The notes beneath the pieces are model-generated. The model did no database searches and was not told the origin of the DNA. It saw only the letters and a list, made by a program, of their open reading frames with translations. A DNA stretch of 64,000 nucleotides, taken from NCBI RefSeq assembly GCF_031127875.1, contig NZ_JARXIA010000018.1, positions 62,001-126,000 on the forward strand, in the 5' to 3' direction. The stretch comes from Pelagicoccus sp. SDUM812005. GTDB taxonomy: Bacteria > Verrucomicrobiota > Verrucomicrobiia > Opitutales > Opitutaceae. The position numbers and the translations under genes are program-made. Positions 1-64,000 of this stretch are shown piece after piece (positions within the stretch are counted from its first letter, which is position 1; each line of letters opens with the position of its first letter).

Positions 1-183
1 CTCGCTTTGGGAGCCGTTGAAGTCCTCGACGACGGCGTCGATGCCGGCGCGTTCGGTGCCGGCCCAGCTGGTCCAGAGGGTGACGATGGTGCGGCCGTCT
101 TCGGTGCGGGTACGGTCTCTGGGGGAACAGGAAGCGAGGAGAAGGGCGAGCGCTGCTAAGGGTAGGGAGGCTAATCTGAGCAC
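1..183 (-). CDS. Extracellular solute-binding lipoprotein of a sugar-type ABC transporter (5' part only)
   Basis: The reading frame runs off the left edge, so only the first 61 codons are visible. It begins at a GTG (181-183), since no in-frame ATG is near. A short hydrophobic signal ends in the lipobox LLLASC, so the mature protein should be lipid-anchored at a cysteine and act in the periplasm. The following residues TIVTLWTSWAG and the DAVVEDFN pattern match the start of family 1 solute-binding proteins, which capture sugars or glycerol phosphate for ABC importers. The ligand cannot be told from this fragment. It lies 62 bp downstream of the EF-hand membrane protein on the same strand, but that gap contains an intergenic repeat, so co-transcription is uncertain. 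Confidence 0.75.
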   Translation of the reverse strand, partial: MLRLASLPLAALALLLASCSPRDRTRTEDGRTIVTLWTSWAGTERAGIDAVVEDFNGSQSE

Positions 184-190
184 GCTGCTA

Positions 191-232
191 TTTGTCCACA
201 GATCGCGGGGATTGGCACGGATTTTTTTTGGC
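191..232. repeat. Intergenic repeat of the CCACAGAT...CACGGATTTT type
   Basis: The gap contains CCACAGAT followed by GGGGATTGGCACGGATTTT. Similar words occur in the gaps at 4405-4436 and, more diverged, at 35060-35089. It is non-coding on both strands. I read these as members of one dispersed family, from resemblance only. Confidence 0.4.
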
Positions 233-245
233 AAAGAGCGCTGTC

Positions 246-2435
246 CTAACGAGTGGGATCGGCCATCGTTTCCTCGACGACGGTCTTTTCCTTCCAGGCG
301 GGGGTCCACTTTCCGCTCTGGTAGAGGTAGGCAGCCAGGAAAGTGGCGGCCAGGGCGGCGGTGATGATTACGAACAGGAAAAGGCCGCCCTTGTGTCCGT
401 TTTGGCTAGACAGCTTGGTCGAGCGTTTGGAGTTCTTGGGAAGTTTTCGGATCGTGGTAAGGGTGCGGGCAAGGTGGGTATTGATGCTGATCTGCCCGTT
501 TACGGCCCAGCCGTTGGCGTCGAGGATCGGTCCGAGGGTTCGCTGTCGCAGACGGATCCATGCTAGGAACATGGAGGGCAGCGATATCATGAGAACCACC
601 GCGAGCAGGGCTAGGGGGAGCCAAGGGCCAAGCGAGATTGCTCGTATTAACAGCATGGATACGAATGTGCCGATACTGCCGACGGCGACGCCGATGGCTG
701 CGACGGTACCGACGTTGATTTGCGCGCTTTTCTTCTCCGGGGCCTTCTTGTCGGCTTGGGCGACGGCGCTCGAGGTGGTGGCGAGGCGTTCGGTAACAGC
801 GTTTTCGGCTGCTTCGGCTCGCTTCGATATTTGCGTATCCAAAAACTTGGCGAACTTTTTATAGGGAGACCAGAATGCTTGCCGGATGCTGATCGGGTTT
901 TCGACGATTTTGACAACGCGTGCGTGCCAGTCCTTGCCGTCTCTGTCGTAGAAGACTCCGTTGCGGCCGACCATGAGGTGGTCTGAGCCGCCGTTGCTGA
1001 GGACGGCGGCGATATGGATAGGGGTCTCGCCCGCGCGGGCGCACTCGCAGTAGATGAGGTAGCAGCGGCTGAGGGAGGCTAGGGTGGAGTGCGCGATGGG
1101 ATTGGCGACTCGCACGCAGAGGTTGCAGCCGCGACTGTCGATGTAGAGGGTTCCTGCCTGGAAGATAGCGGATCGCTCGAAGGAGAAAAAGTCTGCGAAG
1201 TTGACGAAGTTTCGGGCGATCTGGTGGAGGTCTCGCTGGTAACGGACGAGGCGGTCCAGGTCGTCCACGGCGGCAACTTCGTCGGCGAGTTCTCGGTCCT
1301 GGGCGATGAGGGCTTCGAGGCGCGGTCGGTAGTCTTGCTCGAGCAGCTCCTGGATTCGGGTGGCGGGGAGCTGGCGGACGCTGAAGTCGTGAAGTTCTTT
1401 GTGGCGGGCTTCCACGGTGGAGAATCGCTCGGAAATCTCTCGCCAACGTTGAAAGCTGAGTCGGGAGCGGTCGGCGTAGTCTAGTTTCTCTAGCACCACG
1501 GCTCTGAATCCAGCTAGGTCTTGGCTCCAGGCTGGGTTGATGGGACCGTCTAGGTCGAGCTGGAGATCGGCGGTGGGTGGGGCGAGCGGAAGGGCTCGCA
1601 GGGATTCGGGGAGGGAGGATAGGTCATCTTCGCCGATGGCTGCGAATTCGTCGGTATTGTGGTTGAGCGGCTCGGCGGCGCGCGGGTCGTAGGCGACCAG
1701 TTGGCAACGCGAGAAGTAGTCGTCTATCTTGTCCTTTATCTTTCGATAGGCTTCGAATCCGACGGGAGTTTCTTCGGGGGAGTCGGTTTGCGACCACTGG
1801 GAGTAGCGTTCCAGTTCGTCGTAGAAGGTGGCGAGCGTGGCGTTATCGACGCCCATTTCACCGCCGCGGTCTCGCTTCCCGCCGGTGCAGGCGACGATGT
1901 CGGCGATCGCTTGTGAGAGTTTCGGATCTGGAGCGGAGCTTGCGGGTACGATTCCGTCGCCGTTGAAAGCGGCTTTGCTGAAGATCTCGGTGCGTTGGCT
2001 GGTTTCGGCGACGCTGATGGTGGTCGAGTCGGCCTTGCCGAGGTTTTGCAAGATGGCCTTGGCGGCGTTGAGGATCGATTTTCCTTGGGCGGTATCGGTG
2101 GCGATCTTGTCGAGAGCGAGGTTTTGGTTTCCGTCGACGAGGGCGTCCAGGTCGGTGAGCCGTTTGCTTGCCCAGTCGATGGCGGCGAGCAGTTCCGGGA
2201 TGCGCACGGTGCCGTCTCGGTCGGTGTCGATGAGGGCGAGGGTGGCTTCGTCGAATTCGAGTCCTTTGACGGGGCAGCTGAGGGCGACCCACAGCTTTTG
2301 GTCGAGCTGCGAGAGGTTCTTGAGGTCTTCTCCGGATTGCAGAACGACTTGGTCGACATTGCCGGCGCGGAAAAAGGTCCAGCTCGGTTGGCGTTTGGTG
2401 GGGAGTGGTTGGGCTGGTCGGGGCGAGGCGGGCAT
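246..2435 (-). CDS. Large EF-hand-containing membrane protein of unknown function
   Basis: 729 residues, starting at the ATG at 2433-2435. The frame stays open further upstream, but that part lies under the divergent ABC transporter gene and is rejected. Near residues 60-75 is a canonical EF-hand calcium loop, DTDRDGTVRIPE, and a weaker NGDGIV element follows around residue 145. The middle is hydrophilic. The C-terminal 157 residues carry three likely membrane segments (about 573-600, 604-628 and 684-706). A charged cytoplasmic-type tail ends the protein. No enzymatic motif was recognised. Calcium binding is inferred from the loop alone. The family appears unnamed to me; the reading frame itself is convincing because of its length and codon pattern. 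Confidence 0.75.
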   Translation of the reverse strand: MPASPRPAQPLPTKRQPSWTFFRAGNVDQVVLQSGEDLKNLSQLDQKLWVALSCPVKGLEFDEATLALIDTDRDGTVRIPELLAAIDWASKRLTDLDALVDGNQNLALDKIATDTAQGKSILNAAKAILQNLGKADSTTISVAETSQRTEIFSKAAFNGDGIVPASSAPDPKLSQAIADIVACTGGKRDRGGEMGVDNATLATFYDELERYSQWSQTDSPEETPVGFEAYRKIKDKIDDYFSRCQLVAYDPRAAEPLNHNTDEFAAIGEDDLSSLPESLRALPLAPPTADLQLDLDGPINPAWSQDLAGFRAVVLEKLDYADRSRLSFQRWREISERFSTVEARHKELHDFSVRQLPATRIQELLEQDYRPRLEALIAQDRELADEVAAVDDLDRLVRYQRDLHQIARNFVNFADFFSFERSAIFQAGTLYIDSRGCNLCVRVANPIAHSTLASLSRCYLIYCECARAGETPIHIAAVLSNGGSDHLMVGRNGVFYDRDGKDWHARVVKIVENPISIRQAFWSPYKKFAKFLDTQISKRAEAAENAVTERLATTSSAVAQADKKAPEKKSAQINVGTVAAIGVAVGSIGTFVSMLLIRAISLGPWLPLALLAVVLMISLPSMFLAWIRLRQRTLGPILDANGWAVNGQISINTHLARTLTTIRKLPKNSKRSTKLSSQNGHKGGLFLFVIITAALAATFLAAYLYQSGKWTPAWKEKTVVEETMADPTR

Positions 2436-2603
2436 GCTTGAAAGGTGTCTACGGTTCGGGTGGCGGAATGCAGCAATCCGGAGGGATATTTGCCGCAAGG
2501 TAACGTCTTCGCGGATACATGCAAATTGTGCGCCGACAGTTTCGAGAACTAGATTGGGGGTGCTTCGCGCTTGCAGCGGGCGAGTGGAATTCGGTAGCTG
2601 GTA

Positions 2604-3566
2604 GTGATGGCAATGGCAAATGTGGCGGCAGCGATTCGGTTCGAAGGGGTATCGAAGCGCTATGGGGGGCTTGCGGCGTTGGACGCGGTGGACTTGGAAG
2701 TGGAGCCGGGGGAGATCTTCGCTCTCTTGGGACCGAATGGGGCGGGCAAGACGACGGCGATCGGCTGTGCCTCCGGCTTGATCCAGGATTTCGAGGGAAG
2801 AATCGAGGTGGGGGGCTACGATGTGCGGAAGGACTATCGGGTGACGCGGCGGCTGGTGGGGCTGGTGCCGCAGGAACTGAATTTCGACGGCTTCTTTTGC
2901 GCTCGGGACGCGCTCTTTTTTCAGTCGGGGTATTTCGGAGTGAGGCCGGATCGAGCCAAGATCGAGGCCATGCTGCGGAAATTTGCCCTGTATGAGAAAG
3001 CGGATACGAATACGCGTCGTTTGTCCGGAGGCATGAAGCGTCGCCTGATGGTGTGCAAGGCGCTGATGCACGATCCGGCGGTGCTGTTCTTGGACGAGCC
3101 GACGGCGGGGGTCGACGTGGAGCTGCGGGAGGACTTGTGGAAGGTGGTTCGCGGCTTGCGCGACGAGGGGGTGACGATCGTATTGACGACCCATTATCTG
3201 GAGGAGGCGGAGCAGTTGGCGGATCGGATCGGCGTCATCGATGGCGGGAAAATTTTGCGAGTGCAGCCGCGGGAGGAGCTGATGCAGGAGCTGGGGAAGC
3301 GTTGGGTGGAGCTGAGCTTTTCGGTTGAGGTGGAGGCGAGCGTTTTTGCATCTTTGCAGGCGGACCGAGTGGAGCAAGTGAGCGGGCGCGTATTGAGAAT
3401 TGAATACGATCCGGGTGGCGGGATGTCGGAGGAGGAGCATGCGATCGGTGCCATCTTGGATTTTGCTCGATCGCGAGGGCTGGTGGTCGTGGATATCCGA
3501 GCGGGGCGGAGTTCTTTGGAGGACATCTTCAAGGGTTTGCTGGCGCGGAAGGGAGGCGCGGCGTGA
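2604..3566 (+). CDS. ABC-2 type exporter, ATP-binding subunit
   Basis: 320 residues with a complete ATPase core: Walker A GPNGAGKT (about residues 43-50), signature LSGGMKR and Walker B VLFLDEPTAGVD, plus the switch histidine in TTHYLEEAE. This is the DrrA/CcmA-like class that powers ABC-2 exporters of drugs, polysaccharides or lipids. The frame opens at GTG 2604, but ATG 2607 or ATG 2613 could equally be the start. The stop codon overlaps the GTG of the permease gene, so the two are translationally coupled. The substrate is unknown. The gene diverges from the EF-hand protein with about 168 bp between starts. Confidence 0.92.
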   Translation: MMAMANVAAAIRFEGVSKRYGGLAALDAVDLEVEPGEIFALLGPNGAGKTTAIGCASGLIQDFEGRIEVGGYDVRKDYRVTRRLVGLVPQELNFDGFFCARDALFFQSGYFGVRPDRAKIEAMLRKFALYEKADTNTRRLSGGMKRRLMVCKALMHDPAVLFLDEPTAGVDVELREDLWKVVRGLRDEGVTIVLTTHYLEEAEQLADRIGVIDGGKILRVQPREELMQELGKRWVELSFSVEVEASVFASLQADRVEQVSGRVLRIEYDPGGGMSEEEHAIGAILDFARSRGLVVVDIRAGRSSLEDIFKGLLARKGGAA

Positions 3567-4390
3567 GCGCTCGATCGGATTTGGCGTTGGAGCGGTTGCG
3601 GCGCACGGCGGAAGCGGCGAAGCGGTCTTCGGGCTGGTATGCGGCGTGGATCCTGTTTCGCCGAGAGATCAAGCGGTTCATGATCATCCTCGGGCAGAGC
3701 GTGGTGAGTCCGGTGATCACGACCTTGCTCTATTTTTTGGTTTTCGGATTTTCGTTGGGAAGCCGCTTGGACGAGATGGGCGGCATTTCGTATATGGATT
3801 TCCTGACGCCGGGATTGATGATGATGTCGCTGATCAACAATTCGTTTATCAATTCTTCGTTTTCGTTCTTTTTGACCAAGGTGCATGGTTCGGTTGTGGA
3901 TGTCTTGGCGTCGCCGCTTTCGAATCTGCAGATCATGGCGGCCTACACAGCGGCCTCGCTGGTGCGGGGGATGCTGACCTCGGTGATCATTTGGGGAATC
4001 GCGGCGGGGTTCGGGGCGAACACCTTGCACGATCCTTTGCTGACGGTTTGCTTCATGGTGCTGGTGTCCTGCGCCTTTAGCTTGTTTGGGCTGGCGACGG
4101 CGGTGGTATCGAAGGAGTTCGAGCACGTGAACTTGGTGCCGAATTTCGTGGTGGTGCCGTTCACGTTTTTGGGCGGGGTGTTTTATTCGATCTCCTTGTT
4201 GCCGGGCGCGTGGCAGACGGTGGCGTTGTTCAACCCGTTTTTGTACATGGTAAACGGTATCCGTTTGGGCATGACAGGCGTGGGCGATGTTTCGATCGGT
4301 AGTTGCTTTTTAGTGAGCGGGGTGTTTCTGGCAGTATCGTTTGCGGCGGCGTGGTACTTGTTGCGGTCGGGGAAGAACTTACGAAGTTGA
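3563..4390 (+). CDS. ABC-2 type exporter, permease subunit
   Basis: 275 residues, starting at GTG 3563, which overlaps the TGA of the ATPase gene (GTGA). Six hydrophobic segments are visible after a basic N-terminus. The region around SKEFEHVNLVPNFVVVPFTFLGGVFY fits the ABC2_membrane signature near the fifth helix. With the upstream ATPase it should form a homodimeric-type exporter in the inner membrane. Nothing nearby names the cargo; the next gene, rsmE, is unrelated. Confidence 0.9.
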   Translation: MSARSDLALERLRRTAEAAKRSSGWYAAWILFRREIKRFMIILGQSVVSPVITTLLYFLVFGFSLGSRLDEMGGISYMDFLTPGLMMMSLINNSFINSSFSFFLTKVHGSVVDVLASPLSNLQIMAAYTAASLVRGMLTSVIIWGIAAGFGANTLHDPLLTVCFMVLVSCAFSLFGLATAVVSKEFEHVNLVPNFVVVPFTFLGGVFYSISLLPGAWQTVALFNPFLYMVNGIRLGMTGVGDVSIGSCFLVSGVFLAVSFAAAWYLLRSGKNLRS

Positions 4391-4404
4391 GGGAGGGGGA
4401 TGTG

Positions 4405-4436
4405 TTTTTAACCACAGATTTCTCGGATTTGTTTTT
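4405..4436. repeat. Intergenic repeat, ACCACAGATT...GGATTT type
   Basis: TTTTTAACCACAGATTTC followed by TCGGATTTG sits in the gap before rsmE. It matches the words at 191-232 and partly those at 35060-35089. Confidence 0.4.
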
Positions 4437-4460
4437 GATGGATCTTCTGAAGAGGGGGGA

Positions 4461-5192
4461 ATGGAATTTTATTTGATGAATATTGTTTTGTTTGAAGAGG
4501 AGGAGTTGGAGCGAGAATTGCCTTTGGGCGATGAGCGGGCGGTGCATGTCTTGAAGGTTTTGCGGCGGCAGGTTGGCGACGATTTTGATGTGGGCTTGAT
4601 TGATGGGCCTAGGGGTAGGGCGACCGTTAAGGAGATTTTGGATACGGGTTTGCTATTGGGTTTTGAATGGGGGGAGGAGGAGCCGGAGTTGTTGCCGATC
4701 GATTTGGTGGTGGGGTTGAGCCGTCCGCAGACGATGCGGAAGGTTTTGAATGAGGCGACGACTCTTGGGGTGAGGAGTATCCGATTTGTGGTGACGGATA
4801 GAGGGGAGCCGTCCTATGCGGAGTCGAAGCTTTGGTCGACGGGGGAGTGGCGTCGCCATGTGCTGGCAGGGGTGGCTCAGGCTTTTACGACGCGGGTGCC
4901 GCAGGTGAGCTGGGGGATGAGCCTGAAGGAAGCGGCTGCCGAGCTGGCGGGACGGGAGTGTCGCCTGGCTTTGGATAACTACGAGGGGACGGTGCGGCTG
5001 GCCGAGGCTTGCAGGGGAAGTGGCGATCTTGTCTTGGCGATCGGGAGCGAGCGAGGTTGGACCGCTGCGGAGCGAGATTTCCTGCGGAGCGAGGGGTGGA
5101 CGCTAGCGGGAATGGGGGATCGGGTTTTGCGAACCGAAACGGCTGTCGTTGCGGCGGTGGCGGTGGCTCGGGAGCTGATGGGGAGGGCTTAG
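4461..5192 (+). CDS. rsmE: 16S rRNA (uracil-1498-N3)-methyltransferase
   Basis: 243 residues from ATG 4461, which has a purine-rich AGAGG just upstream; ATG 4476 is an alternative. The family methylates U1498 of 16S rRNA using S-adenosylmethionine through a knotted SPOUT fold. Supporting motifs are the early VHVLKVLRR, the central PQTMRKVLNEATTLGV, and the C-terminal SAM-knot AIGSERGWTAAERDF followed by VLRTETA. Length is typical (about 240). The stop codon overlaps by a few bases the stop of the convergent small protein gene at 5189. Confidence 0.93.
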   Translation: MEFYLMNIVLFEEEELERELPLGDERAVHVLKVLRRQVGDDFDVGLIDGPRGRATVKEILDTGLLLGFEWGEEEPELLPIDLVVGLSRPQTMRKVLNEATTLGVRSIRFVVTDRGEPSYAESKLWSTGEWRRHVLAGVAQAFTTRVPQVSWGMSLKEAAAELAGRECRLALDNYEGTVRLAEACRGSGDLVLAIGSERGWTAAERDFLRSEGWTLAGMGDRVLRTETAVVAAVAVARELMGRA

Positions 5193-5566
5193 GGCGCGGC
5201 TTGTTCTTCAGGCGGTTCCGGAGCTTTGAGGTCCGACTTTTTGTCGAATGCGTTAAATGTTATTTTTGTATCGGGATCTAGGATACGGATCTTGAAGTCG
5301 ATGCCAGGCTTTGGGGCGAGGGTGAGTATTTTGAAGTCTACGCCGGTCTTGGGAGGGACGATGCGGATCTTGTAGTCGATCCCGCTGGCATTGGCTTCTG
5401 TTGCGGCGGGGGCGATGAGGAAGGGCTCTGGCGAAGCAGGATTGAAGGCGTCGGCTTCTGGAGAGAGTGGAAAGCTCAAGTCTGGCGAGACCGGCTCGTC
5501 TTGGGCTTTGGCGAAGGGGGCGAGGGAGAGCAGGCTCGCGAGGGGTAGGAAGGAGCGGGAGTTCAT
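5189..5566 (-). CDS. Small secreted protein with short imperfect tandem repeats
   Basis: 125 residues from ATG 5564-5566. A signal peptide (SFLPLASLLSLAPFAKA) is followed by an acidic, proline-rich region. Three consecutive copies of a unit of about 15 residues follow: GIDYKIRIVPPKT, GVDFKILTLAPKP and GIDFKIRILDPDT. A fourth degenerate copy starts KITFNAFD. The alternating hydrophobic pattern suggests short beta strands, possibly a stacked or fibrous structure. I do not recognise the family. It lies 62 bp downstream of the EF-G paralogue on the same strand and converges with rsmE. Confidence 0.65.
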   Translation of the reverse strand: MNSRSFLPLASLLSLAPFAKAQDEPVSPDLSFPLSPEADAFNPASPEPFLIAPAATEANASGIDYKIRIVPPKTGVDFKILTLAPKPGIDFKIRILDPDTKITFNAFDKKSDLKAPEPPEEQAAP

Positions 5567-5628
5567 CTTTTGGGCGACCGGATTGGATGGCGATTGTTCC
5601 TTGTTGGGGGCGCTACCGGATGTTGCGG

Positions 5629-7704
5629 TTAGTGGGTGGCGGCGAGCTCGGGTTGCTTGAGGACGCGGGTTTCGAGGTTGGAGGGTAGGGGGTCGTAGCG
5701 GGCGAAGGTTTCGCTGTGCAGGCCGACGCCGCCGGTGAGGGAGCGGAGGGTGGTGGCGTAGCGGTACATTTCCATTTGGGGAACTTCGGCTTTGATGGTG
5801 CGGTACTTGGTTTCGCCTTCGATGCCGTGGATGTGGCCGCGGCGGGCGGAGAGGTCGCTCATGACGTCGCCGAGGTATTGCTCGGGAACCTTGACTTCGA
5901 TGGAGAGGATGGGCTCGAGGAGGATGGGGCGGGCGTTTTTGAAGGCTTCGGTGAAGGCTTCGCGGCCGGCGGTTTGGAAGGCGATGTCCTTGGAGTCGAC
6001 GGTGTGCATTTTGCCGTCGTAGAAGTCGATGGCGACGTCGGTGATGGGGTAGCCGGCGTGGATGCCGGCTTCGCAGGCGGCGTGCACGCCTTTTTCGACG
6101 GAGGGGACGAAGACGCGGTCGACGTTGTTGCCGGTGAGGGAGTGGGAGAACTGGATGCCGGCGCCGGGTTCGGTGGGGCGGATGCGCAGCCAGACTTCGG
6201 CGAATTGGCCGGCGCCGCCGGATTGTTTTTTGTGGCGGTATTTGGCTTCGGCGGGGGATTGGATGGTTTCGCGGAAGGGGACGCGGGGCTCGACGATGTC
6301 GACCTCGACGTTGAAGCGGCGGGCGAGGCGGGATTTGATGACTTCGAGGTGGAGTTCGCCTTGGCCGGATACGACGAGTTCGTGAGTTTCGGCGTTGTAT
6401 CCAAAAAGGAAGGTTGGGTCTTCTTCGTGCAGGGTGGCGAGTCCGGCGGCGAGCTTGTCTTCGTCGCCTTTGTGCAGGGCGACGAGGGCGCCGTGGATGT
6501 TGGGGTGTGGATATTGGACGGCGGGGAGTCGGACTTTGCGCTCGAGGGAGGTGAGGGTGTTGCCGGTATGGGTATCTTTGAGCTTGGCCATGACGCCGAT
6601 GTCGCCGGGGCCGATTTCTGGGATGGCTTGGCGTTGGTGGCCTTGCAGGGTGAAGATTTGGCCGATCTTTTCGGTGGTGCCGTGGAAGGGGTTGAGGAGC
6701 TCCATGTTGGGGTGGATGGAGCCGGAGTACATGCGGCAGAAGGAGAGCTCGCCGACGTGGGGTTCGGAGATGGTTTTCCAGATGTAGCAGGCGGGGTTGG
6801 AGTCGGAGAGGGCGATGTCTCCGCGGTGGCCTTCTTCGTCGATGGCGGGCACGATTTTTCGGTCGAGGGGGGAGGAGCCGTATTTGGAGATGAGGTCCAT
6901 GAGGCGGGCGACGCCGACGTTTGTGGTGGCGGAGGTGGCGAAGACGGGGATGAAGGTTTCGGCTTGGATGGCTTTGTGCACGCCGGAGCGGAGCTGCTCT
7001 TCGGTGAGGTCGCCTTGGTCGAAGAATTCTTCCATGAGGGTGTCGTCGGCTTCGGCGACGAGTTCGACGAGTTCGGCGTGGAGCTTGCGGACGCGCTCTT
7101 TCCAGGGGCCTTGGGCGGGGGTCTCGGTATATTTTCCGGAGGCGTCGCCGGCGTAGTCGACTTCTTCGGAGCGCAGCACGTCGAGGATGCGGCGGCAGCC
7201 GGGGCCGGGATCGATGGGCAGGGTCATGGGGAAGACTTTGCGGCCGTAGTGGGCGCGCAGCTCGGCGAGGGTGGCGTCGAAGTCGACGTTGTCCTTGTCG
7301 ATGCCGTTGACGACGATGAGCTTGGGCAGCTGGAATTGGTTGGCGTAGTCCCAAACTTGGTCGGTGCCGATTTCGGGACCGGAGAGGGCGTTGACCACGA
7401 CCATGGCGAAATCGCCGACGCGGAGGGCTCCGAGGCCTTCGGAGATGAAGTCGAGGTAGCCGGGGGTGTCGATGATGTTGTACTTGGTGCCTTGCCAGTC
7501 GCAGTGGAGGAGGGAGGCGTGCACGGAGATCTGGCGTTCCTTTTCGGTGGCGTGGTAGTCGCTGACGGTGTTGCCGGCCTCGACGGTGCCCATGCGGTCG
7601 ATGGCTCCGGCGCAGGCGAGCATGGCTTCGGCGAGCGAGGTTTTGCCGGCGGACTGGTGGCCGACGAGGGCGAAGTTGCGGATGCGTTCTGGAGGATAGC
7701 TCAT
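5629..7704 (-). CDS. Elongation factor G-like GTPase (EF-G paralogue)
   Basis: 691 residues starting at ATG 7702-7704 (MSYPPERIRN); the upstream extension lacks conservation with EF-G. All EF-G domains are present in order: GTPase, domain II, III, IV and V. Motifs differ from canonical translocase: the P-loop is GHQSAGKTS rather than AHIDAGKTT, G3 is DTPGYLDF, and G4 is NGIDKDN rather than NKMD. These variants fit the EF-G-like/EF-G2 subfamily, which often lacks clear translocation activity. A canonical fusA is presumably elsewhere. The gene heads a possible two-gene unit with the small secreted protein. Confidence 0.88.
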   Translation of the reverse strand: MSYPPERIRNFALVGHQSAGKTSLAEAMLACAGAIDRMGTVEAGNTVSDYHATEKERQISVHASLLHCDWQGTKYNIIDTPGYLDFISEGLGALRVGDFAMVVVNALSGPEIGTDQVWDYANQFQLPKLIVVNGIDKDNVDFDATLAELRAHYGRKVFPMTLPIDPGPGCRRILDVLRSEEVDYAGDASGKYTETPAQGPWKERVRKLHAELVELVAEADDTLMEEFFDQGDLTEEQLRSGVHKAIQAETFIPVFATSATTNVGVARLMDLISKYGSSPLDRKIVPAIDEEGHRGDIALSDSNPACYIWKTISEPHVGELSFCRMYSGSIHPNMELLNPFHGTTEKIGQIFTLQGHQRQAIPEIGPGDIGVMAKLKDTHTGNTLTSLERKVRLPAVQYPHPNIHGALVALHKGDEDKLAAGLATLHEEDPTFLFGYNAETHELVVSGQGELHLEVIKSRLARRFNVEVDIVEPRVPFRETIQSPAEAKYRHKKQSGGAGQFAEVWLRIRPTEPGAGIQFSHSLTGNNVDRVFVPSVEKGVHAACEAGIHAGYPITDVAIDFYDGKMHTVDSKDIAFQTAGREAFTEAFKNARPILLEPILSIEVKVPEQYLGDVMSDLSARRGHIHGIEGETKYRTIKAEVPQMEMYRYATTLRSLTGGVGLHSETFARYDPLPSNLETRVLKQPELAATH

Positions 7705-7954
7705 AGCGTCTTTTTTGGGTGAGGGGTTGGGCGAGCCGTTTTGGTTCGCTCGGCTTTCTTGGGGCAAAAGACGTATGTTGCTTGGGTGGCGAAGTCGCGT
7801 GCGTCTCCGCTGCAGGAAAAGTGGCGCGGCTTGGGGGGCGGGTCAAGAAGGGGAATGGGGAAGCTGGAAAGTCGCCCGCGGTGCGGTCGATCCGCCGGGG
7901 ATGCGAATGAAGATCCTCCTGTTGGGGACGCGGGCTGAAGCTCCGCGCTACGGC

Positions 7955-8512: not shown

Positions 8513-8520
8513 GGGTGGGA

Positions 8521-8557
8521 GAGTGGAAAGCGAATGGCGAAAAGTGAAGGGGGAAAG
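8521..8557. repeat. Intergenic AGTGAA-rich repeat
   Basis: A degenerate iteration of GTGGAAAG, GCGAAAAGTGAAG and GGGGAAAG lies between the TonB receptor terminator and rsmD. Similar stretches occur at 20820-20853 and 42560-42597, always between genes. Confidence 0.4.
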
Positions 8558-8581
8558 CTGGGGGCTTGGGTGGAAAACGGA

Positions 8582-30431: not shown

Positions 30432-30690
30432 AGGAGAGGAGTGTCGAGAATGGCGTAGGAGGATAGGACTGGCGATTGGATTTTTTGCGCATCGTGGGAG
30501 CTGGTTGGAGTAGGCAGGCCCAGGGCGAATCGCGGTCTAAGGGGTTTGAGGGAAAGTCTGGCGGGCGAGTCGGAGAGTTACGTGTCTGGGCTTAGGTAGG
30601 GGGTCTTAGTCTGTACTTCTCGGCTATTTCGAGGCTTTGTGGATACGTTCGTAGGGCGGGACATTACTAATCCAACTAATAGATACGCTT

Positions 30691-31470: not shown

Positions 31471-33516
<2,046 letters not shown>

Positions 33517-44261: not shown

Positions 44262-44678
44262 CTAGTGGTCGTTGCCGTCGTAGATCCACATGGGTTCGGT
44301 ATTGCCGGCTCGCTGGAATCCCAGCTTTTGGTAGAAGGCGGTGGCTTTTCCGTCGGCGGTGAGCATGTGCATGTGGAACCCTGCGTAACGTGACAGGAGG
44401 CGGTTCATTATCTGGCGACCGATGCCTTGGCCTTGGTATTCCGGCATGACGAGGAGGTGCGGGTAGTAGACGACCAGGTGCCCATCCGAAATGGCGTTGC
44501 CAAGGCCGACCAGTTTGGGGCCGTCCCAAGCGCTAAGGACTGAGTGCGAGCCTTCGAGGGCGTTGCTCAGGGTGTCCGGGATTTTTGCGGAAGACCAATC
44601 GTTGGCGGCGTAGAGGGCTTGGACCTGATCGATGGGCAGGTACTTGTTCTGGCTGTAGCGTATGGGGGCGGTGGGCAT
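44262..44678 (-). CDS. GNAT-family N-acetyltransferase
   Basis: 138 residues from ATG 44676-44678; a TTG at 44694-44696 would add six residues. The acetyl-CoA signature LLVMPEYQGQGIGRQIMNRLL is canonical, followed by the GKATAFYQKLGFQRAG strand. It resembles small aminoglycoside- or amine-type acetyltransferases only at the fold level. Likely co-transcribed with the downstream GNAT gene. Confidence 0.87.
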   Translation of the reverse strand: MPTAPIRYSQNKYLPIDQVQALYAANDWSSAKIPDTLSNALEGSHSVLSAWDGPKLVGLGNAISDGHLVVYYPHLLVMPEYQGQGIGRQIMNRLLSRYAGFHMHMLTADGKATAFYQKLGFQRAGNTEPMWIYDGNDH

Positions 44679-45007
44679 GGTTTGTTTTGGATACAAGTTT
44701 CTCTACCTGTTCGAGGGAGCGGGGCGAGGGGAGCTTTGTGTAAGGAGGAGGTTCGAGGGGGGGCTAGAGGGGACAGCTACGTCACGTCGCGCGAAGTGGC
44801 TGATGTGTTCGAAGTTAAGGGGATTGTTGAGTTTATGTCTGCGCCAAAATAGCGCCGATTTGCTGCCGTATTTCAAGGTTACGTGACAGGAGTGTTACGC
44901 ATTTTCGTAATGCGCAACGCTGGAGTGACAAGATGGTTACAGGCCCTCTTTCCCATTGAGATTTTCAGAAGCTTCGGAGTCTTTCTTGGCCTCAATCTAT
45001 ATTCAAA
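44679..45007. other. 329-bp divergent regulatory region
   Basis: No credible coding frame. It separates the GNAT pair (leftward) from the TonB receptor (rightward). The left part is GC-rich with nothing recognised. From about 44877 the sequence becomes AT-rich and holds a palindrome and two direct-repeat sites. A TATATT at 44998-45003 stands only 4 bp before the receptor ATG. Confidence 0.6.
44883..44942 (+). promoter_or_regulatory. Compound regulatory site: palindrome flanked by two 7-4-7 direct repeats
   Basis: Site 1 is GTGACAG-N4-GTTACGC (44883-44900). Site 2 is GTGACAA-N4-GTTACAG (44925-44942), 42 bp further on. The 11-bp period is that of OmpR/PhoB-family operators; the reverse complement of site 2, CTGTAAC-N4-TTGTCAC, looks like a Pho box. 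Between them, GTTACGCATT / AATGCGCAAC (44894-44918) is a palindrome with 10-bp arms, one mismatch and a 5-nt centre. Confidence 0.45.
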
Positions 45008-53154: not shown

Positions 53155-53178
53155 CTCATCCTTTTCTAGCTATTTTCA

Positions 53179-56251: not shown

Positions 56252-56476
56252 GGCTTCCGGAGGACACGCTTTTGCCTGTTCGGGGCGCATATCAAGCATC
56301 GAAAAGGAGTGGCGTCGACTGAGGAACTTACCTGCTGCAACTGCTAGGGAGCTTGCCTGCCGGTTCGCTAAATTCGTTTCAAAGCGAATGCCTGTCTCCG
56401 ATCCGAGCTTAGGCTCAGGCCTTCACTAGGCGATACACCTAGCTGTGTGTAATTAACCCCAGATGTTTAGGTGCTT

Positions 56477-57538: not shown

Positions 57539-57567
57539 CCTTAGGGAAAGTCAGTTTTGATTCAGTT

Positions 57568-58200: not shown

Positions 58201-58234
58201 TGTATCCAACGATCAAGGACATTAACCGATCCCT

Positions 58235-58867
58235 ATGTCTAAAGGAAAGCTAACGCTCTTCGCGCTTCCCATCGCCAGTTTCTCGATTTGGCTATGGGGA
58301 GGAACTCCTGAGGAGCTTGCTCCGAAAGGCGACCAGCAGGTGCCGTTTACGACGCCGAGCGACTTCGTTCTGCCCGCTTCGATCGAAGGGATCCCGTTGG
58401 ACTACAGGGATTCGTGGGCTCGCATCACCGGTTTCGAATTTTCCGGCCTCCATTGGAACCACTTCGTGGTGGTTTACGTGAACAAGGGCGCCGATATCTA
58501 CAACGAAAACTATTTCGAGTACGTGAATACGTTCGTGGAAGACGATTGGGGCGCGGAGGAGTCGGAGGACGAGGACGCGGAGTTTAAAGCCTACGAACAA
58601 GGGACGATTTTCCTGAAGGAGCATTATACGGCCAACGGTGGCAAGCCAACGGATACCAGTTTCGTGACCCTGATGGAGAAGAAGGAGCCCGGCTACGATC
58701 CGGAGTTTGGAGACTGGCGATACGTTTGGATCGATGGGCGCAGCGGCGAGATCTTGCAGGACGGAAACAGTAAGAACGAGGTGCTCAACAAGAGCTGCAT
58801 CGAATGCCATGCCAATATGGCGGATCGAGACTTTGTCTTCGCCACGGCGTCGCGGGCAGGGCACTAG
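58235..58867 (+). CDS. Cytochrome P460-family protein
   Basis: 210 residues from ATG 58235. An N-terminal hydrophobic segment (FALPIASFSIWLWGG) exports it. The heme-attachment site is C188-C191-H192 (CIECHANMADRDFVF) near the C-terminus, as in cytochrome P460, and a lysine in GTIFLKEH (about K128) stands where the family crosslinks heme to lysine. Cytochrome P460 oxidises hydroxylamine or handles NO. It is the third gene of the redox group. Confidence 0.87.
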   Translation: MSKGKLTLFALPIASFSIWLWGGTPEELAPKGDQQVPFTTPSDFVLPASIEGIPLDYRDSWARITGFEFSGLHWNHFVVVYVNKGADIYNENYFEYVNTFVEDDWGAEESEDEDAEFKAYEQGTIFLKEHYTANGGKPTDTSFVTLMEKKEPGYDPEFGDWRYVWIDGRSGEILQDGNSKNEVLNKSCIECHANMADRDFVFATASRAGH

Positions 58868-58895
58868 GCCCTCTCCTTGCGGTAGCTTTCCAAGC

Positions 58896-58920
58896 ACCGG
58901 CAATTTCCGGTAACTTTGTT
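58896..58920 (+). terminator. Weak possible terminator after the P460 gene
   Basis: Short stem ACCGG / CCGGT with a 6-nt loop, followed by AACTTTGTTTT, 29 bp past the P460 stop. Confidence 0.3.
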
Positions 58921-58974
58921 TTGGCGCCGCAGCGTGGGCGATTAGGGTCTCCCTTTTGAGACCTTTTTCGTTTT

Positions 58975-61900
58975 ATGCCCAAGCCGCCGTTACCTGAGTT
59001 GTCCCGTTTCCATCCCTTGGTTGGGCGTTGGTTTTCCGAGCGTTTGGGAAAGCCGACGGAAATCCAAGCGAAGGCCTGGGAGCTCATCGCTGCGGGCGAG
59101 CATTGCTTGATCTCGGCCGCAACCGGGAGCGGCAAGACTTTGGCGTCATTCCTGTGGGCCATCAGCCAGCTGGCCGCGGGCGAATGGGAGCTCGGCCAAA
59201 CGCGGGTGCTATACGTTTCGCCCTTAAAGGCTCTCAATAACGACATCCGGCGCAACCTGCTGGGGCCGCTGGAGGAGCTCAAGGAGCGCTTCGAAAGGGA
59301 GGGCGTTGCGTGGCCGGATATTCGGGTGATGACGCGTAGCGGGGATACGGAGCAGAGCGACCGGCGCAAGATGCTGCGGCATCCGCCGGAAATCTTGATC
59401 ACGACCCCGGAGAGCCTGAACCTGCTGCTTACCTCGAAGGATGGGCAACGCTCCTTGCTGGGCGTGCAGTCGGTGATCATCGACGAGGTGCACTCGGTGG
59501 TTGGGAGCAAGCGTGGCGTTTACTTGATGACGGCGATCGAGCGCCTGGCTCATCTGAACGGCGAGTTTCAGCGGATCGCGTTGTCGGCCACGGTGCGGCC
59601 CATGGAGCGAGTGGCGTCTTACATGGGTGGATACGTCGACGGCAAGGCGCGTTCAGTGACGTTGGCCGAATCGGCGGCGAAGAAGACGTATGAGATCTCA
59701 GTGCGCTTCCCGGCGGAGGCGAAAGAGCAGGCAGAGGACGACGACTTCTGGCACCCGATCGTGCAAGACTTGAAGGCGTTGGTTTCGGAAAACGAATCGA
59801 CTTTGATTTTCGTGAACAGCCGCAAGCTTTGCGAAAAGCTGGCCTATAAGATCAATCGCGAGGAGCCGGTCCCGATCGCGTATTCGCATCACGGATCGCT
59901 TTCGAAGGAATTTCGCTTTGCGGTGGAGCAGCGTTTGAAGCAGGGGGAGCTCAAGGCGATCGTCGCGACCAACTCGCTGGAAATGGGCATCGACGTTGGG
60001 GCTTTGGACTGCGTGGTGATGGTGCAGTGTCCGGGGCAGATCTCTTCGGCGGTGCAAAAGGTGGGGCGTGCGGGGCATCAGGTCGGCGCCACCAGTAAGG
60101 CGGTGGTCTTTCCGTCGCACTCCCGCGATTTCCTGGAAGCCGCTGTATTGTCGGAGTCCATACAGGAGCGAGCGATCGAGGCGGTGCGTCCAGTGGAGGC
60201 GCCTTTGGACGTGCTGGCTCAAGTTTTAGTTTCTATCTTGGGGGCGGGGCCTTGGGATATCGACGAGCTGTATGCGTTGGTGCGGCGGGCGTATCCCTAT
60301 CGAAACCTGTCGCGGGAGCTTTTCGATCTGGTTTTGAACATGCAGGCGGGGCGCTATGCGGGGAGTCGCTTGCGGGAGCTGAAAGCGCGGGTGTCGCTCG
60401 ACCGGACGGCGAATACGGCAACGCTGCGCAAGGGCGCCTTGATGGCCTTCTATTTCTCCGGCGGAGTGATTCCCGATCGCGGGTACTTCCATTTGCGGCA
60501 TAGCGGTACGGGAGGACGGATCGGCGAGCTCGACGAGGAGTTTGTTTGGGAACGGACCATAGGCGATGTATTCACGCTAGGAGTACAGAGTTGGCGGATC
60601 GACCAGATCACGCATAACGACGTTTTGGTGTCGCCCGCTGCGGGTGGGGAGGTGGCTCCGCCGTTTTGGAGGGCGGAAACCTTCGATCGGGATTTCCATT
60701 TCTCTAATCGGATCGGAACCTTTCTGGAGTGGGCGAACGAGCGCTGCGGCGATTCGGACTTCCTGGGGGAGCTGCAATCGCGCTTCAAGATGGATGCGGT
60801 GGCAGCGAAGGCCTTGCTCGATTTTCTGGAACGTCAACGTTTGGTGACGGGGAAGGATCTTCCGCATCGCCACCACATCTTGGCGGAAGTCATCGACGCG
60901 GCGCCGGGAGGAGCTCCGGGGCAACAGTTGGTGCTGCATACGCATTGGGGCGGCCGAGTGAATCGTCCTTTCGCATTGGCCTTGGATGCGGCGTGGAACG
61001 AAACCTTTGGGCATCGCACGGAGGTGTACGTGAACAACGACTGCGTGGTGGTGATGCTCTCGGACGAGATTTCCGTGGAGGATGTGATCGGGCTGGTGGG
61101 TCCACAAAATGTGGATACATGGTTGCGGCAGCGTCTGGAGGGATCCGGTTTCTTCGGGGCTCGTTTTCGGGAGGCGGCCGGAACGTCGCTGCTGGTGACG
61201 CGCAGCAAGGCGGGGCAGCGGCTGCCGCTTTGGTTGAGCCGCATGCGGGCGAAGAAGCTTTTCGAGTCGGTGCAGCGCTACGACGATTTTCCGCTCTTGC
61301 TGGAAGCCTGGCGGACTTGCTTGAAGGACGAGTTCGACATGGATTCGCTGCGGGAGGTGCTGGGCGAGCTGGAGCAGGGCGATATCGCGGTGTCGGTGAC
61401 GCGTGGCAGCAAGGCGAGCCCCTTTGCCTCGAGCGTGGCCTGGCGGCAGATAAACGAGGAGTACATGTACGCCACGGATAATCCCAACGCGACGGGAGAG
61501 TCCAGGCTGCGCGATGACTTGGTGCGTTCGGTGGCCTTCGATGCGGAGAATCGTCCGCAGGTGGATACGGCCTTGGTGCGGGAGTTTGAAGAGAAGCGTC
61601 AGCGCTTGGCGGAAGGTTACGCGCCGAGCGATGCCTTGGAGTTGAAGGAGTGGTTGCGGGATCGCATCGCCATTGTTTCGCTGGAATGGGAGCGTTTGCA
61701 AGCCGGTGTAGAGGTAGAGGAGACAGTGGACGTGGCGGAACACGGGGGCTGGATTTGCCTGCCGGAAGAGGAGGCGCGAATGAAACGGCTCTTTTGCGAG
61801 GAGCCCGATTCGGATCTGCTTTGTGAATTCCTGTCCTACTATGGTCCTGTATCGATTGAAAGACTACAGGGATGGTTAGGTTGCGGGGCGGTGGCTCTAA

Positions 61901-63276
61901 AGGTAGCCCTCGACGCCCTGGAGGACGAGCGACGTTTGATTTCCGGTTTTCTGCGGGAAGGGGAGGAAAGCTTGCAGGTTTGCGAGGCGGAGAATTTCGA
62001 AATTTTGCTGCGCATGAAGCGAGCCCGAGGGCGGGCGGCTTTCGTTCCCTTGCCCGTGGAGAAGCTGCCGCTTTTTCTAGCGACTTGGCAAGGCTTGGCG
62101 AGAAAGGACGATCGGGCAGACGCCTTGAGGGAGTGCTTGGATCGCTTGCTCGGTTGGACGGCTCGCGTCGAAGATTGGGACGGCGCTTTGCTGAAGTCGC
62201 GCGTGGATGGATACAATCCGTCCCAGTTGGATGCGGTTTTGCTTGAGGATGGTTCGATTTGGTACGGCGCGGGCGAGGGGAAAGCAGGCTTCTGCTTGCC
62301 GGAAGATTGGGACTTGTTGAGCGCGGGTTTAGTCGAAGGCGAGCTGTCCGCGACGCAGGAGTCGGTGCTCGGCTTGCTGGAGTCGGGCGGCCGCTTTGGC
62401 TTTACCCAGCTGCTCGACCAGGTCGGTTGCGGGGCGGCAGAGCTGGAGGAGGCCTTGTGGGACTTGGTGTGGCGCGGCTTGCTTTCCAACGACGCCTTTG
62501 CCGCGGCGAGGAAGGGCGCGGCGGGGAAGTTTCAGCTTTGCGCTACGGGCGCGAGGCAGGAGCAGAGTCCACGGGCGATCCGTATGGGGCGGCGGTCGCG
62601 GGTGGCGAGGCCGGTCGCGTATCCGGGAAGCTGGTACCGACTGCCGGAGTCCGGTGGGGACTTGGATGCGGTCGAGAAGCTCGACTTTGAGAAGGAGCGG
62701 GCTCGAGTGGTCCTGGATCGCTACGGGGTGGTTTTTCGGGAGTTGTTGGCGAGGGAAGGCGAGGGCTTTCGTTGGAAGGACGTCTTTCGGGCTTTGCGTC
62801 TCTTGGAGCTTTCGGGGGAGATTGTCGGAGGGCGCTTTTTCGAAGGCATTGAGGGGCTTCAGTTCGTATCCAAGGAAGCGTTACGTACGCTTAGGAAAGC
62901 GCTACCGGAGGAATCGATCTTCTGGCTGGCGGCTACGGATCCGGCGTCGCTTTGTGGTGCCGGTTTGGAGGCTTTTAAGGGGGCGTTGCCGAAGCGCGTT
63001 GCGGGGACCCGTTTGCTTTACCGCGGGAGCGAGCTCGTGTGCGAGGCTCAGCGAAGCGGGAAGGTCTTGCATTTCCACCTGGCAGCGAGCGATCCGGATT
63101 TGCCGGAAATCGTTGCGATCTTGGCGGAGTCCTTGGGCCTGGATGGATTGAGCCAGCTGAAGCTGGAGACGATCAACGGCGAAGACGCTCGCAACAGTCC
63201 CTATTTGGAAAGCCTGGACGCGGTCTGGCGTCTGCACAGCGACCACAAGCAAGTGGTGGTCGAGGGCCTGCGGTAG
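58975..63276 (+). CDS. lhr: Lhr-type large DEAD/DEAH-box helicase
   Basis: 1433 residues from ATG 58975. Walker A is ATGSGKT (49-55), the DEVH box is D170-E171-V172-H173, with SATVRPMERVA as motif III, TLIFVNSRKLCEKLA, TNSLEMGIDVGALD and QKVGRAGHQ as motifs IV-VI. The Lhr core (winged helix plus beta-barrel) follows, then a long C-terminal extension giving the 'long' Lhr layout. Lhr enzymes are DNA or RNA:DNA helicases linked to DNA repair. The next gene is a putative DNA-repair radical SAM protein. Confidence 0.93.
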   Translation: MPKPPLPELSRFHPLVGRWFSERLGKPTEIQAKAWELIAAGEHCLISAATGSGKTLASFLWAISQLAAGEWELGQTRVLYVSPLKALNNDIRRNLLGPLEELKERFEREGVAWPDIRVMTRSGDTEQSDRRKMLRHPPEILITTPESLNLLLTSKDGQRSLLGVQSVIIDEVHSVVGSKRGVYLMTAIERLAHLNGEFQRIALSATVRPMERVASYMGGYVDGKARSVTLAESAAKKTYEISVRFPAEAKEQAEDDDFWHPIVQDLKALVSENESTLIFVNSRKLCEKLAYKINREEPVPIAYSHHGSLSKEFRFAVEQRLKQGELKAIVATNSLEMGIDVGALDCVVMVQCPGQISSAVQKVGRAGHQVGATSKAVVFPSHSRDFLEAAVLSESIQERAIEAVRPVEAPLDVLAQVLVSILGAGPWDIDELYALVRRAYPYRNLSRELFDLVLNMQAGRYAGSRLRELKARVSLDRTANTATLRKGALMAFYFSGGVIPDRGYFHLRHSGTGGRIGELDEEFVWERTIGDVFTLGVQSWRIDQITHNDVLVSPAAGGEVAPPFWRAETFDRDFHFSNRIGTFLEWANERCGDSDFLGELQSRFKMDAVAAKALLDFLERQRLVTGKDLPHRHHILAEVIDAAPGGAPGQQLVLHTHWGGRVNRPFALALDAAWNETFGHRTEVYVNNDCVVVMLSDEISVEDVIGLVGPQNVDTWLRQRLEGSGFFGARFREAAGTSLLVTRSKAGQRLPLWLSRMRAKKLFESVQRYDDFPLLLEAWRTCLKDEFDMDSLREVLGELEQGDIAVSVTRGSKASPFASSVAWRQINEEYMYATDNPNATGESRLRDDLVRSVAFDAENRPQVDTALVREFEEKRQRLAEGYAPSDALELKEWLRDRIAIVSLEWERLQAGVEVEETVDVAEHGGWICLPEEEARMKRLFCEEPDSDLLCEFLSYYGPVSIERLQGWLGCGAVALKVALDALEDERRLISGFLREGEESLQVCEAENFEILLRMKRARGRAAFVPLPVEKLPLFLATWQGLARKDDRADALRECLDRLLGWTARVEDWDGALLKSRVDGYNPSQLDAVLLEDGSIWYGAGEGKAGFCLPEDWDLLSAGLVEGELSATQESVLGLLESGGRFGFTQLLDQVGCGAAELEEALWDLVWRGLLSNDAFAAARKGAAGKFQLCATGARQEQSPRAIRMGRRSRVARPVAYPGSWYRLPESGGDLDAVEKLDFEKERARVVLDRYGVVFRELLAREGEGFRWKDVFRALRLLELSGEIVGGRFFEGIEGLQFVSKEALRTLRKALPEESIFWLAATDPASLCGAGLEAFKGALPKRVAGTRLLYRGSELVCEAQRSGKVLHFHLAASDPDLPEIVAILAESLGLDGLSQLKLETINGEDARNSPYLESLDAVWRLHSDHKQVVVEGLR

Positions 63277-63424
63277 GCTTAGGGCGGAGAGGTTGTGGAT
63301 GTCGCGGTCTCGGGCGCTTTGAACTGGTTCGGGGTTTGTGCTTAGGAAGGTGGGTCGAGCTTGATCGCGTGGTGGGGTGGGGCTGTGTTTGTCCGAGGCT
63401 TGGCGATAGAGTGGGAGGACGGAA

Positions 63425-64000
63425 ATGGACTTGGGAAAAAAGTTAGAGATATTGGCGGATGCTGCGAAGTACGATGCGTCGTGCGCCAGCAGCGGCGGTC
63501 AAAAGCGAAGTAGCCGAGGCAAGGGGAGTGGAGTGGGATCGACCACAGGCTCTGGAATTTGCCATAGCTACGCTCCCGACGGGCGTTGCATTTCGTTGCT
63601 CAAGATCCTGTTCACGAACGCGTGCATTTTCGATTGCAGCTACTGCGTCAACCGTCGTTCGAGCGACACGCCGCGAGCCAGTTTTACGGTGGAGGAAGTT
63701 GTTTCCCTGACGCTTGATTTCTACAAGCGAAACTACATCGAAGGCCTTTTCTTGAGTTCGGGGATCATACGTGACGCTGACTTCACCATGGAGCGGCTAG
63801 TCCGTGTCGCTCGCACGCTGCGACAGGCGCATGGCTTCAGGGGTTACATTCATTTGAAGACGATTCCGGAAGCGTCTCCTGGGTTGATCGAAGAGGCGGG
63901 TTTGTGGGCGGATCGTTTGAGTGTGAATGTGGAACTGCCGACGCAACAAGGGCTGGAGAAGCTGGCGCCGGAGAAAAATTTGAGGCGTATTCAAGGAAGC
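63425..64000 (+). CDS. Putative DNA modification/repair radical SAM protein (5' part)
   Basis: 192 codons are visible from ATG 63425 (GGAGG 8 bp upstream) and the frame continues past the right edge. The cluster motif CIFDCSYC (about residues 67-74) follows LLKILFTNACI. The N-terminus KKLEILADAAKYDASCASSGG and GSGICHSYAPDGRCISLLK match the radical-SAM family annotated as putative DNA modification/repair protein, which is usually encoded with a uracil-DNA-glycosylase-like partner. That partner would be just beyond this window. Confidence 0.85.
   Translation, partial: MDLGKKLEILADAAKYDASCASSGGQKRSSRGKGSGVGSTTGSGICHSYAPDGRCISLLKILFTNACIFDCSYCVNRRSSDTPRASFTVEEVVSLTLDFYKRNYIEGLFLSSGIIRDADFTMERLVRVARTLRQAHGFRGYIHLKTIPEASPGLIEEAGLWADRLSVNVELPTQQGLEKLAPEKNLRRIQGS

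Follow-up and report, generated by a model that had tools for sequence, protein, structure and literature searches.

Introduction

Only a few classes of oligomer are known to be iterated throughout bacterial genomes, and KOPS (FtsK-orienting polar sequences) are one of them. The available part of one study names three others, Chi, uptake sequences and HIP1, and describes HIP1, a highly iterated palindrome (HIP) of cyanobacteria, as a compact octamer that is rich in G+C and associated with orphan methyltransferases (PMC4390886). The uptake signal sequences (USS) of Haemophilus influenzae recur at a mean spacing of about 1,000 bp and accumulate by molecular drive, according to an excerpt of another study (PMC7811141); the letters of the USS and of the DNA uptake sequence (DUS) are given in part of a third (PMC2346458). 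Here, a degenerate 21-bp palindrome is described from the verrucomicrobial genome of Pelagicoccus sp. SDUM812005. It was noticed as an over-represented heptamer, TGGATAC/GTATCCA, in a stretch of 64,000 nucleotides (contig C29, NZ_JARXIA010000018.1, positions 62001-126000) of the 6.65-Mb draft genome. This whole stretch is called the window.

A larger sample of 337 kb from the same genome takes in all of contig C11 and the part of C29 from 42001 onwards, which contains the window; by our own simple gene predictions, 61.8 kb of it is noncoding. Samples from other genomes span 60-420 kb each. Enrichment was judged against Markov and shuffling models, not phylogenetic ones, and genome-wide counts were set against those of a control pattern, which for the heptamer is its reversal.

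An over-represented heptamer in all reading frames

The heptamer occurs 46 times in the window (29 copies of TGGATAC and 17 of GTATCCA). Under a third-order Markov model, no other 7-mer of the window is as strongly over-represented (46 vs 8.2 expected, z 13.2). Dinucleotide shuffling of the window yields a mean of 2.2 copies, with a maximum of 6 in 100 shuffles. The hexamer GGATAC/GTATCC occurs 70 times (41 and 29). Under a fifth-order, that is maximal-order, model, TGGATAC lies outside the 12 top 7-mers listed for the window; among 6-mers, that order places TATCCA first (56 vs 35.0) and also lists GGATAC (70 vs 51.5). Across the whole genome, the heptamer is found 3287 times (1783 and 1504 by orientation), and the reversed pattern 257 times (119 and 138). 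The 337-kb sample contains 192 copies, compared with 42.7 expected.

Synonymous-codon shuffling of the predicted genes in this sample gives 28.3 heptamers, with a maximum of 42 in 100 shuffles, where 160 are observed. Enrichment extends to all three sense frames (11, 44 and 42 copies vs 2.5, 10.1 and 5.8 expected) and to all three antisense frames (32, 23 and 8 vs 3.9, 5.4 and 0.6), and 32 additional heptamers lie outside genes or span gene ends. This is a genuine and large excess that does not depend on reading frame. Since the heptamer is enriched in six coding frames and equally common outside genes, it acts at the level of DNA.

These counts bear out much of the initial annotation, which had estimated about 45 heptamers and 67 hexamers by hand and had proposed that selection acts on the DNA and not on a single codon pair. 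With six frames and intergenic DNA enriched, selection, or drive, on DNA is indeed the better description, and neither a third-order Markov expectation nor codon bias accounts for the numbers. All 14 positions quoted in its two lists fall within two bases of a true copy (657 for 656, 10519 for 10520 and 6399 for 6397, for example). Its G+C content of about 62% was too high, the measured value being 59.9%. Two of its three examples of copies between genes, at 30640 and 58202, are intergenic by our gene calls, while the third, at 44688, lies just inside a predicted acetyltransferase open reading frame (44262-44696, minus strand).

The heptamer as half of a palindrome

The signal unit is longer than the heptamer that was first proposed. 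When heptamer copies are aligned, GT[AC] appears 12 bases upstream, with an AT-rich stretch in between. Several one-mismatch cores with GT[AC] upstream are likewise in excess in the 337-kb sample, namely TCGATAC (24 vs 2.0), TGAATAC (24 vs 1.9), CGGATAC (23 vs 2.4) and TGGGTAC (10 vs 0.7), while TGGAAAC is not (1 vs 1.8). The letters tolerated in the core mirror those of the upstream half. The full element is a degenerate 21-bp palindrome, Y-GTATYSR-WWWWW-YSRATAC-R, in which TGGATAC forms the strong half.

Expectation maximisation (EM) started from the asymmetric heptamer arrives at a motif symmetric about one axis in Pelagicoccus sp. SDUM812005, in its congener Verrucomicrobiae bacterium DG1235 (G006) and in G019, and at a similar palindrome in G144. 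Both strands enter this procedure, and the symmetry was therefore checked by an unbiased scan in which every trinucleotide pair, at each gap from 4 to 21, was compared with its own counts at other gaps in the same codon phase. GTA-N13-TAC is the top pair of all in our genome (159 vs 22.8, z 25.9), DG1235 (196 vs 32.8), G019 (77 vs 12.3) and G144 (50 vs 11.7). Among dyads, it ranks first in G040 and G054, second in G020 and third in G069, and falls outside the first four in G010, G011, G055, G076, G148 and G167. In G020 (22 vs 8.0) and G054 (14 vs 8.2), other 7-mers rank above the heptamer. Over the whole of our genome, GTAT-N11-ATAC occurs 922 times, compared with 13 for the control.

Watson-Crick partners between the two halves stand at the level of independence in nine of ten position pairs, the outermost being slightly above it (114 vs 103). 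As base-pair covariation between the halves is lacking, the palindrome is taken to be a site that a dimer reads on double-stranded DNA, and not a hairpin. The whole score distribution of the heptamers in our sample is shifted upward relative to anagram controls. The perfect form, GTATCCA-N5-TGGATAC, is absent from the DNA samples of 14 genomes, where few would be expected (matrix probability 0.036 per site), and its absence was dropped as a striking feature on that ground.

Density, spacing and conservation

Sites were scored with a log-odds palindromic matrix and called at a score of at least 7. In the 337-kb sample they occur at 0.94/kb, compared with 0.103/kb in Markov-simulated DNA; at a score of at least 9, the densities are 0.567/kb and 0.007/kb. 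At about 0.9 sites/kb, extrapolation gives roughly 6,000 per genome. Dyads within genes number 243, compared with a mean of 42 under synonymous shuffling and a maximum of 55 in 20 shuffles. Density in coding DNA (0.91/kb) is close to that in noncoding DNA (1.08/kb), without concentration at promoters, so that an ordinary operator is unlikely.

TGGATAC has a share on the G-rich strand of 0.66 in DG1235, where dinucleotide composition predicts 0.69, and of 0.63 in DG1235 and our sample together, where 0.67 is predicted. Both orientations occur in both skew domains of DG1235 (126 vs 64 by G-rich strand), and composition accounts for the bias. An impression that heptamers beyond about 120 kb of contig C11 were nearly all on the plus strand did not hold, as both orientations occur across the whole contig.

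Spacing was examined for 814 sites (313 in our sample, 370 in DG1235 and 131 in G019), with overlapping matches merged. Short gaps are depleted: 23 are below 100 bp where 72.3 are expected (0.32 times), 72 below 200 bp (138.5 expected) and 148 below 300 bp (198.3 expected). Ten permuted matrices gave, on average, 1.21, 1.15 and 1.12 times expectation over the same ranges. Sites avoid one another over about 200-300 bp, and a mutational or modification bias alone is therefore unlikely; sites are counted per stretch of DNA. Numbers per 20 kb are Poisson-like (variance/mean 1.00 in our sample and 1.12 in DG1235). The coefficient of variation of spacing indicates no significant regularity, either for heptamers (0.93; 18.8% of simulations are as low) or for full sites (11.5% as low).

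Sites of the window region are also conserved. In four relatives, pooled and without folding about the centre, 251 of 276 aligned bases of the left triplet (0.91) and 240 of 276 of the right (0.87) are retained, compared with 962 of 1196 in the site middle (0.80) and 2047 of 2726 in the flanks (0.751). The six triplet columns together exceed the flanks in conservation by 0.139, more than in any of 60 permuted-matrix controls (mean 0.003, standard deviation 0.035, largest 0.105). Taken per relative and without a control, the folded footprint is clear in G007 (37 sites) and in Pelagicoccus sp. SDUM812002 (G002; 32 sites), which belongs to the same genus, and not clear in DG1235 (13 sites) and G001 (11 sites). 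Exact TGGATAC is conserved in 33 of 60 aligned cases, in which one site may count in several relatives, and anagram 7-mers in 1179 of 4127. The corresponding fractions for heptamer and anagrams are 7/13 and 207/623 in DG1235, 10/22 and 513/1731 in G007, 11/18 and 328/1252 in SDUM812002, and 5/7 and 131/521 in G001. Aligned parts of C29 carry 0.96 sites/kb (43 sites) and unaligned parts 0.92/kb (13 sites), both small numbers.

Distribution across the Opitutales

GTAT-N11-ATAC and its control were counted in 283 genomes of the order, each at least 90% complete and drawn evenly from a larger group. Counts are high in every genome examined of genera g1 (seven genomes, 440-922 vs 9-27), g13 (two genomes, 676 and 614 vs 36 and 26), g48 (six, 193-560 vs 10-38) and g20 (six, 86-405 vs 4-16), as well as in G020 (623 vs 7). 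Members of other families are high too, for example G120 (341 vs 42) and G125 (136 vs 5). Counts are low throughout g16 (nine genomes, 0-4), g37 (13 genomes, 0-10), g40 (five, 0-8) and g67 (22, with 2-12 and controls of 0-8). Two genera are patchy: g82 has five high genomes (63-136), one at 18 and two at 8-9, while g7 has two high genomes (96 and 255) and nine at 1-27. The contrast in g82 sets G125, G139, G541, G573 and G599 (rich) against G438 and G578 (poor), and that in g7 sets G654 and G667 (rich) against G060, G086 and G628 (poor). In a phylum-wide sample of 387 genomes searched for GTM-N9-TGGATACR, our genome has 506 matches vs 3, and genomes outside the Opitutales are near control level, the largest count seen being 23 vs 9 (G350). 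From this distribution, the palindrome is probably old in the Opitutales and appears to have been lost repeatedly.

Among motif-poor genomes, no alternative dyad with a z above 4.5 was found in 80 kb each of G010, G055, G076, G167 and G011; in 100 kb of G148, TTT-N14-AAA reaches z 4.9. The intermediate genomes G011 and G148 lack a GTA-N13-TAC peak, yet have an 8.8-fold and a 9.8-fold excess of sites at a score of at least 9, with few sites in each.

Three genomes have TGGATAC below the reversed control (G074, 8 vs 91; G036, 19 vs 95; G163, 44 vs 192), possibly from avoidance or composition. Other repeats were noted in two of the other genomes. G040 (Opitutaceae bacterium EW11) has an iterated octamer, AGCTGCGT/AGCTGGGT (37 vs 5.9 and 22 vs 3.3), together with an excess of CAG-N9-CTG, CTG-N9-CAG and CTG-N21-CTG pairs, perhaps a separate dispersed repeat. 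Octamers in strong excess, CAACACGC (24 vs 4.2) and ACACGCAA (17 vs 1.7) among them, also occur in G148 (Candidatus Synoicihabitans), where they overlap like a tandem repeat.

What might maintain the palindrome

The explanation that we tentatively favour, with a confidence a little short of even, is that the palindromes form the binding grid of an abundant homodimeric chromosomal protein, the putative reader. Mirror-image halves, the lack of base-pair covariation and the AT-rich centre together make the classical shape of a homodimer site. Such a protein would read the double-stranded site with one subunit on each GTATYSR half, across a bendable AT-rich centre. It would be a nucleoid-organising or chromosome-organising factor, for which the exact place of a site would not matter as long as some site lay within a few hundred bases. 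A weak half could be compensated by a strong partner half, and sites would stay near the affinity threshold, because weak selection at thousands of places would only keep each neighbourhood occupied. Where a lineage lost or changed its reader, the sites would be lost. A broader version, which we hold slightly more loosely, is that a homodimer reads the palindrome about once per kb genome-wide, coding DNA included, and so shapes thousands of genes. Its task would be to organise the nucleoid in a sequence-specific way or to mark the cell's own DNA, and the system would be old in the Opitutales and repeatedly lost.

Several points tell against a protein grid. EM on G020 with G040 and on G054 with G069 did not recover the palindrome and drifted to codon-periodic composition; that result was left unused. 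Pair counts in these four genomes do reveal GTA-N13-TAC, though weakly in G069 (11 vs 2.8). G040 has a heptamer excess (22 vs 5.0), yet GT[AC] is almost absent upstream (1 vs 0.5). The full-site score of 7 is reached by 74 of the 192 heptamers in our sample; the others have weaker partner halves, and the strong dyad therefore does not explain every excess heptamer. Choosing sites by a symmetric score threshold, as was done for the covariation test, in itself reduces the number of matching positions between halves and so biases the test somewhat against covariation. No protein that reads the site was found, no systematic search for it having been made, and we know of no nucleoid protein with dyad sites that leaves a genome-wide site excess inside genes. 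Selection per site must be very weak, acting at thousands of individually dispensable places. Lastly, uniform density and short-range avoidance are equally expected of uptake sequences.

Counting of sites per stretch of DNA would fit either a chromosomal protein that needs a site in each neighbourhood or biased DNA uptake, which is the main rival and which we regard as possible though rather unlikely. Competent cells would prefer DNA that bears the palindrome, and recombination would spread it by molecular drive, without benefit from any single site, as in Haemophilus and Neisseria. To our knowledge, known uptake sequences are not palindromic, whereas this element is. Uptake would suit sites that are uniform and unpolarised, that lie inside and outside genes, that include several enriched one-mismatch variants, and that turn over between relatives and are patchy within genera; avoidance at short range is expected where one site per fragment is enough. 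The mean spacing also equals that of the H. influenzae USS, as given in the excerpt of that study (PMC7811141). ComEC-like matches at E≤0.001 occur in 131 of 141 relatives, none above the curated cut-off, and DprA and PilT are above cut-off in all 34 genomes. In our genome, two genes for pilus-type ATPases lie a few kb from one with a Pfam Competence domain (8980-10617 of C23:80001-95000, with Rho, Thy1 and GlnD-like genes nearby). However, ComEC-like, DprA and PilT genes are found in motif-poor genomes too, and GspH-type minor pilins show no link to the motif, occurring in 3 of 16 genomes that are rich in it and in 6 of 16 that are poor in it. No loss of ComEC-like, PilT or DprA genes was seen to accompany motif loss. 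In the same excerpt, the USS is under-represented in coding and in newly acquired DNA (PMC7811141); unlike it, the palindrome is nearly as dense in coding as in noncoding DNA, and, on the small numbers available, about as dense in unaligned as in aligned stretches of C29. No literature combining Pelagicoccus with natural transformation was found among open-licence articles in PubMed Central (PMC). A protein grid is preferred over uptake because of the dyad symmetry, the similar density in coding DNA and, from few sites, in unaligned DNA, and the occurrence of ComEC-like, PilT and DprA genes in motif-poor genomes.

The remaining explanations are less probable. A HIP1-like palindrome kept by a site-acting enzyme, whether a methyltransferase or a nuclease or recombination system that uses the motif as a self mark, is improbable, although HIP sequences are likewise iterated, clade-specific and low in some members, as described in the available part of the HIP1 study (PMC4390886). 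As a second point in its favour, PF04860, a phage portal gene, is present in three of 30 motif-poor genomes and in none of the 30 motif-rich ones; the difference is not significant and far too small to rest on. HIP sequences are short and GC-rich, each matching a methyltransferase target, in that same part (PMC4390886), while the palindrome here is not a perfect short one; a degenerate 21-bp dyad with an AT-rich centre seems unlike a methyltransferase site, and short-range avoidance would not be expected from mutation or modification alone. Much less probable again is a Chi-type recombination hot spot or a KOPS-type segregation signal, read on a single strand. The motif contains a short, abundant oligomer with 63-66% of copies on the G-rich strand, but the palindrome is its own reverse complement, and this share stays below the composition prediction, so that there is neither a leading-strand bias beyond composition, as for Chi, nor, in DG1235, a strong origin-to-terminus polarity, as for KOPS. 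The strand-oriented segregation signal and the repair guide put forward by the initial annotation are disfavoured for these reasons; of its other candidates, DNA uptake stays the main rival, and a methylation motif seems unlikely for such a dyad. We give almost no weight to a codon-pair or composition artefact, or to transcription terminator hairpins: 160 of 192 heptamers do lie in predicted genes, but six frames are enriched and the dyad excess survives synonymous shuffling. Inverted heptamer pairs at most 40 bp apart number one in each of two genome samples, and the halves lack the compensatory pairing of a terminator, a repetitive extragenic palindromic element or an RNA element.

Prophages had been considered as foreign-DNA controls and proved unusable, no PF04860 portal gene being present in the 30 motif-rich genomes. 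Prophages bearing this gene seem rare in the family.

The palindrome is long and dyad-symmetric, and it occurs in a phylum for which the literature found describes no genome-wide iterated oligomer. Among the open-licence PMC articles listed for the heptamer itself, uptake sequences in Verrucomicrobia and across phyla, USS spacing, molecular drive, Opitutales or Opitutaceae motifs, HIP and nucleoid proteins, none describes it in its title or the beginning of its abstract, which is not proof of absence. Should it prove to be an uptake sequence, its palindromic type would be new; should it be the site of a nucleoid protein, it would indicate that proteins of this kind can shape the sequences of genes across a whole genome. 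The apparent natural losses inside genera make a hunt for the reader tractable by comparative and pull-down work.

Sites in the window

The window holds 56 dyad sites, 23 of which score at least 10. Half of its heptamers (23 of 46) belong to called sites, and the others have weaker partner halves. The genes scanned are ordinary chromosomal ones, among them SAM synthetase, DXP reductoisomerase, elongation factor G, TonB receptors and a large ATP-dependent helicase. IspG, encoded at 31471-33516, is 91% identical to its counterpart in SDUM812002 and 87% identical to that in DG1235.

Table 1. Dyad sites of the window (21 bp each, score at least 7), in window coordinates; end and score are given for sites scoring at least 10.
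Start	End	Strand	Score	Sequence or location
643	663	.	12.1	CGTATTAACAGCATGGATACG
2499
4626
4776	4796	.	10.6
5267	5287	.	12.2	TGTATCGGGATCTAGGATACG
8900
9999	10019	.	10.0	GGTATCCGTTTGGTAGATACC
10507
11677
12402	12422	.	12.2	TGTATCTGTTATGCAAATACA
13648	13668	.	11.1	CGTATCCTAAGCGTTGATACG
13936
14437	14457	.	12.1
14984	15004	.	12.9	TGTATTTGAATTTCGGCTACG
15586
16363	16383	.	10.6
16902	16922	.	10.2
21609
21872
22092	22112	.	12.1
22243	22263	.	10.3
24456
24915	24935	.	12.2
25446
25899	25919	.	12.0
26346
26966	26986	.	10.6
30667
31352	31372	.	12.9	TGTATCGGTTTTAAGGATACG
31617
32460	32480	.	10.8	within ispG gene
33105	33125	.	10.0	within ispG gene
33400
38608
40961
41443	41463	.	10.4
43927
44921
44998
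49227	49247	.	10.1
51266
52186
54535	54555	.	10.1
54798	54818	.	11.2
55256
55957
56600
58201
58511
59615
60144
60567
61099
61848	61868	.	10.5
62618
62865

Other oligomers were also noted. GAGCAGG/CCTGCTC (170 vs 79.7) and GAGTTCG/CGAACTC (143 vs 68.3) are in moderate excess in the 337-kb sample and in some relatives, and ACCCTAGCC, a small unexplained repeat, occurs six times in the window, on both strands, vs 0.2 expected.

Comparison with known systems

The dyads of Fis, ArgR and CRP are built like the palindrome, from two half-sites flanking a centre that is AT-rich in the first two, as is typical of homodimeric DNA-binding proteins. They differ in sequence and in spacing from GTAT-N11-ATAC, and we know of no excess of them throughout coding DNA. 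Chi and KOPS are likewise over-represented chromosomal oligomers; they are directional, in contrast to a self-complementary palindrome that is not polarised beyond composition.

USS and DUS resemble the palindrome in occurring about once per kb, inside and outside genes, with enriched variants and a clade-specific, patchy distribution. Both are asymmetric, whereas the element described here is a 21-bp palindrome. The excerpt on H. influenzae adds that the USS is rarer in coding DNA (PMC7811141). By analogy, HIP1 is the nearest palindromic precedent: in the available part of its description, it too is a genome-wide iterated palindrome of unknown role that is low in some lineages (PMC4390886). 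It is a compact, GC-rich octamer accompanied by orphan methyltransferases, in contrast to the long, spaced and degenerate dyad found here in another phylum.

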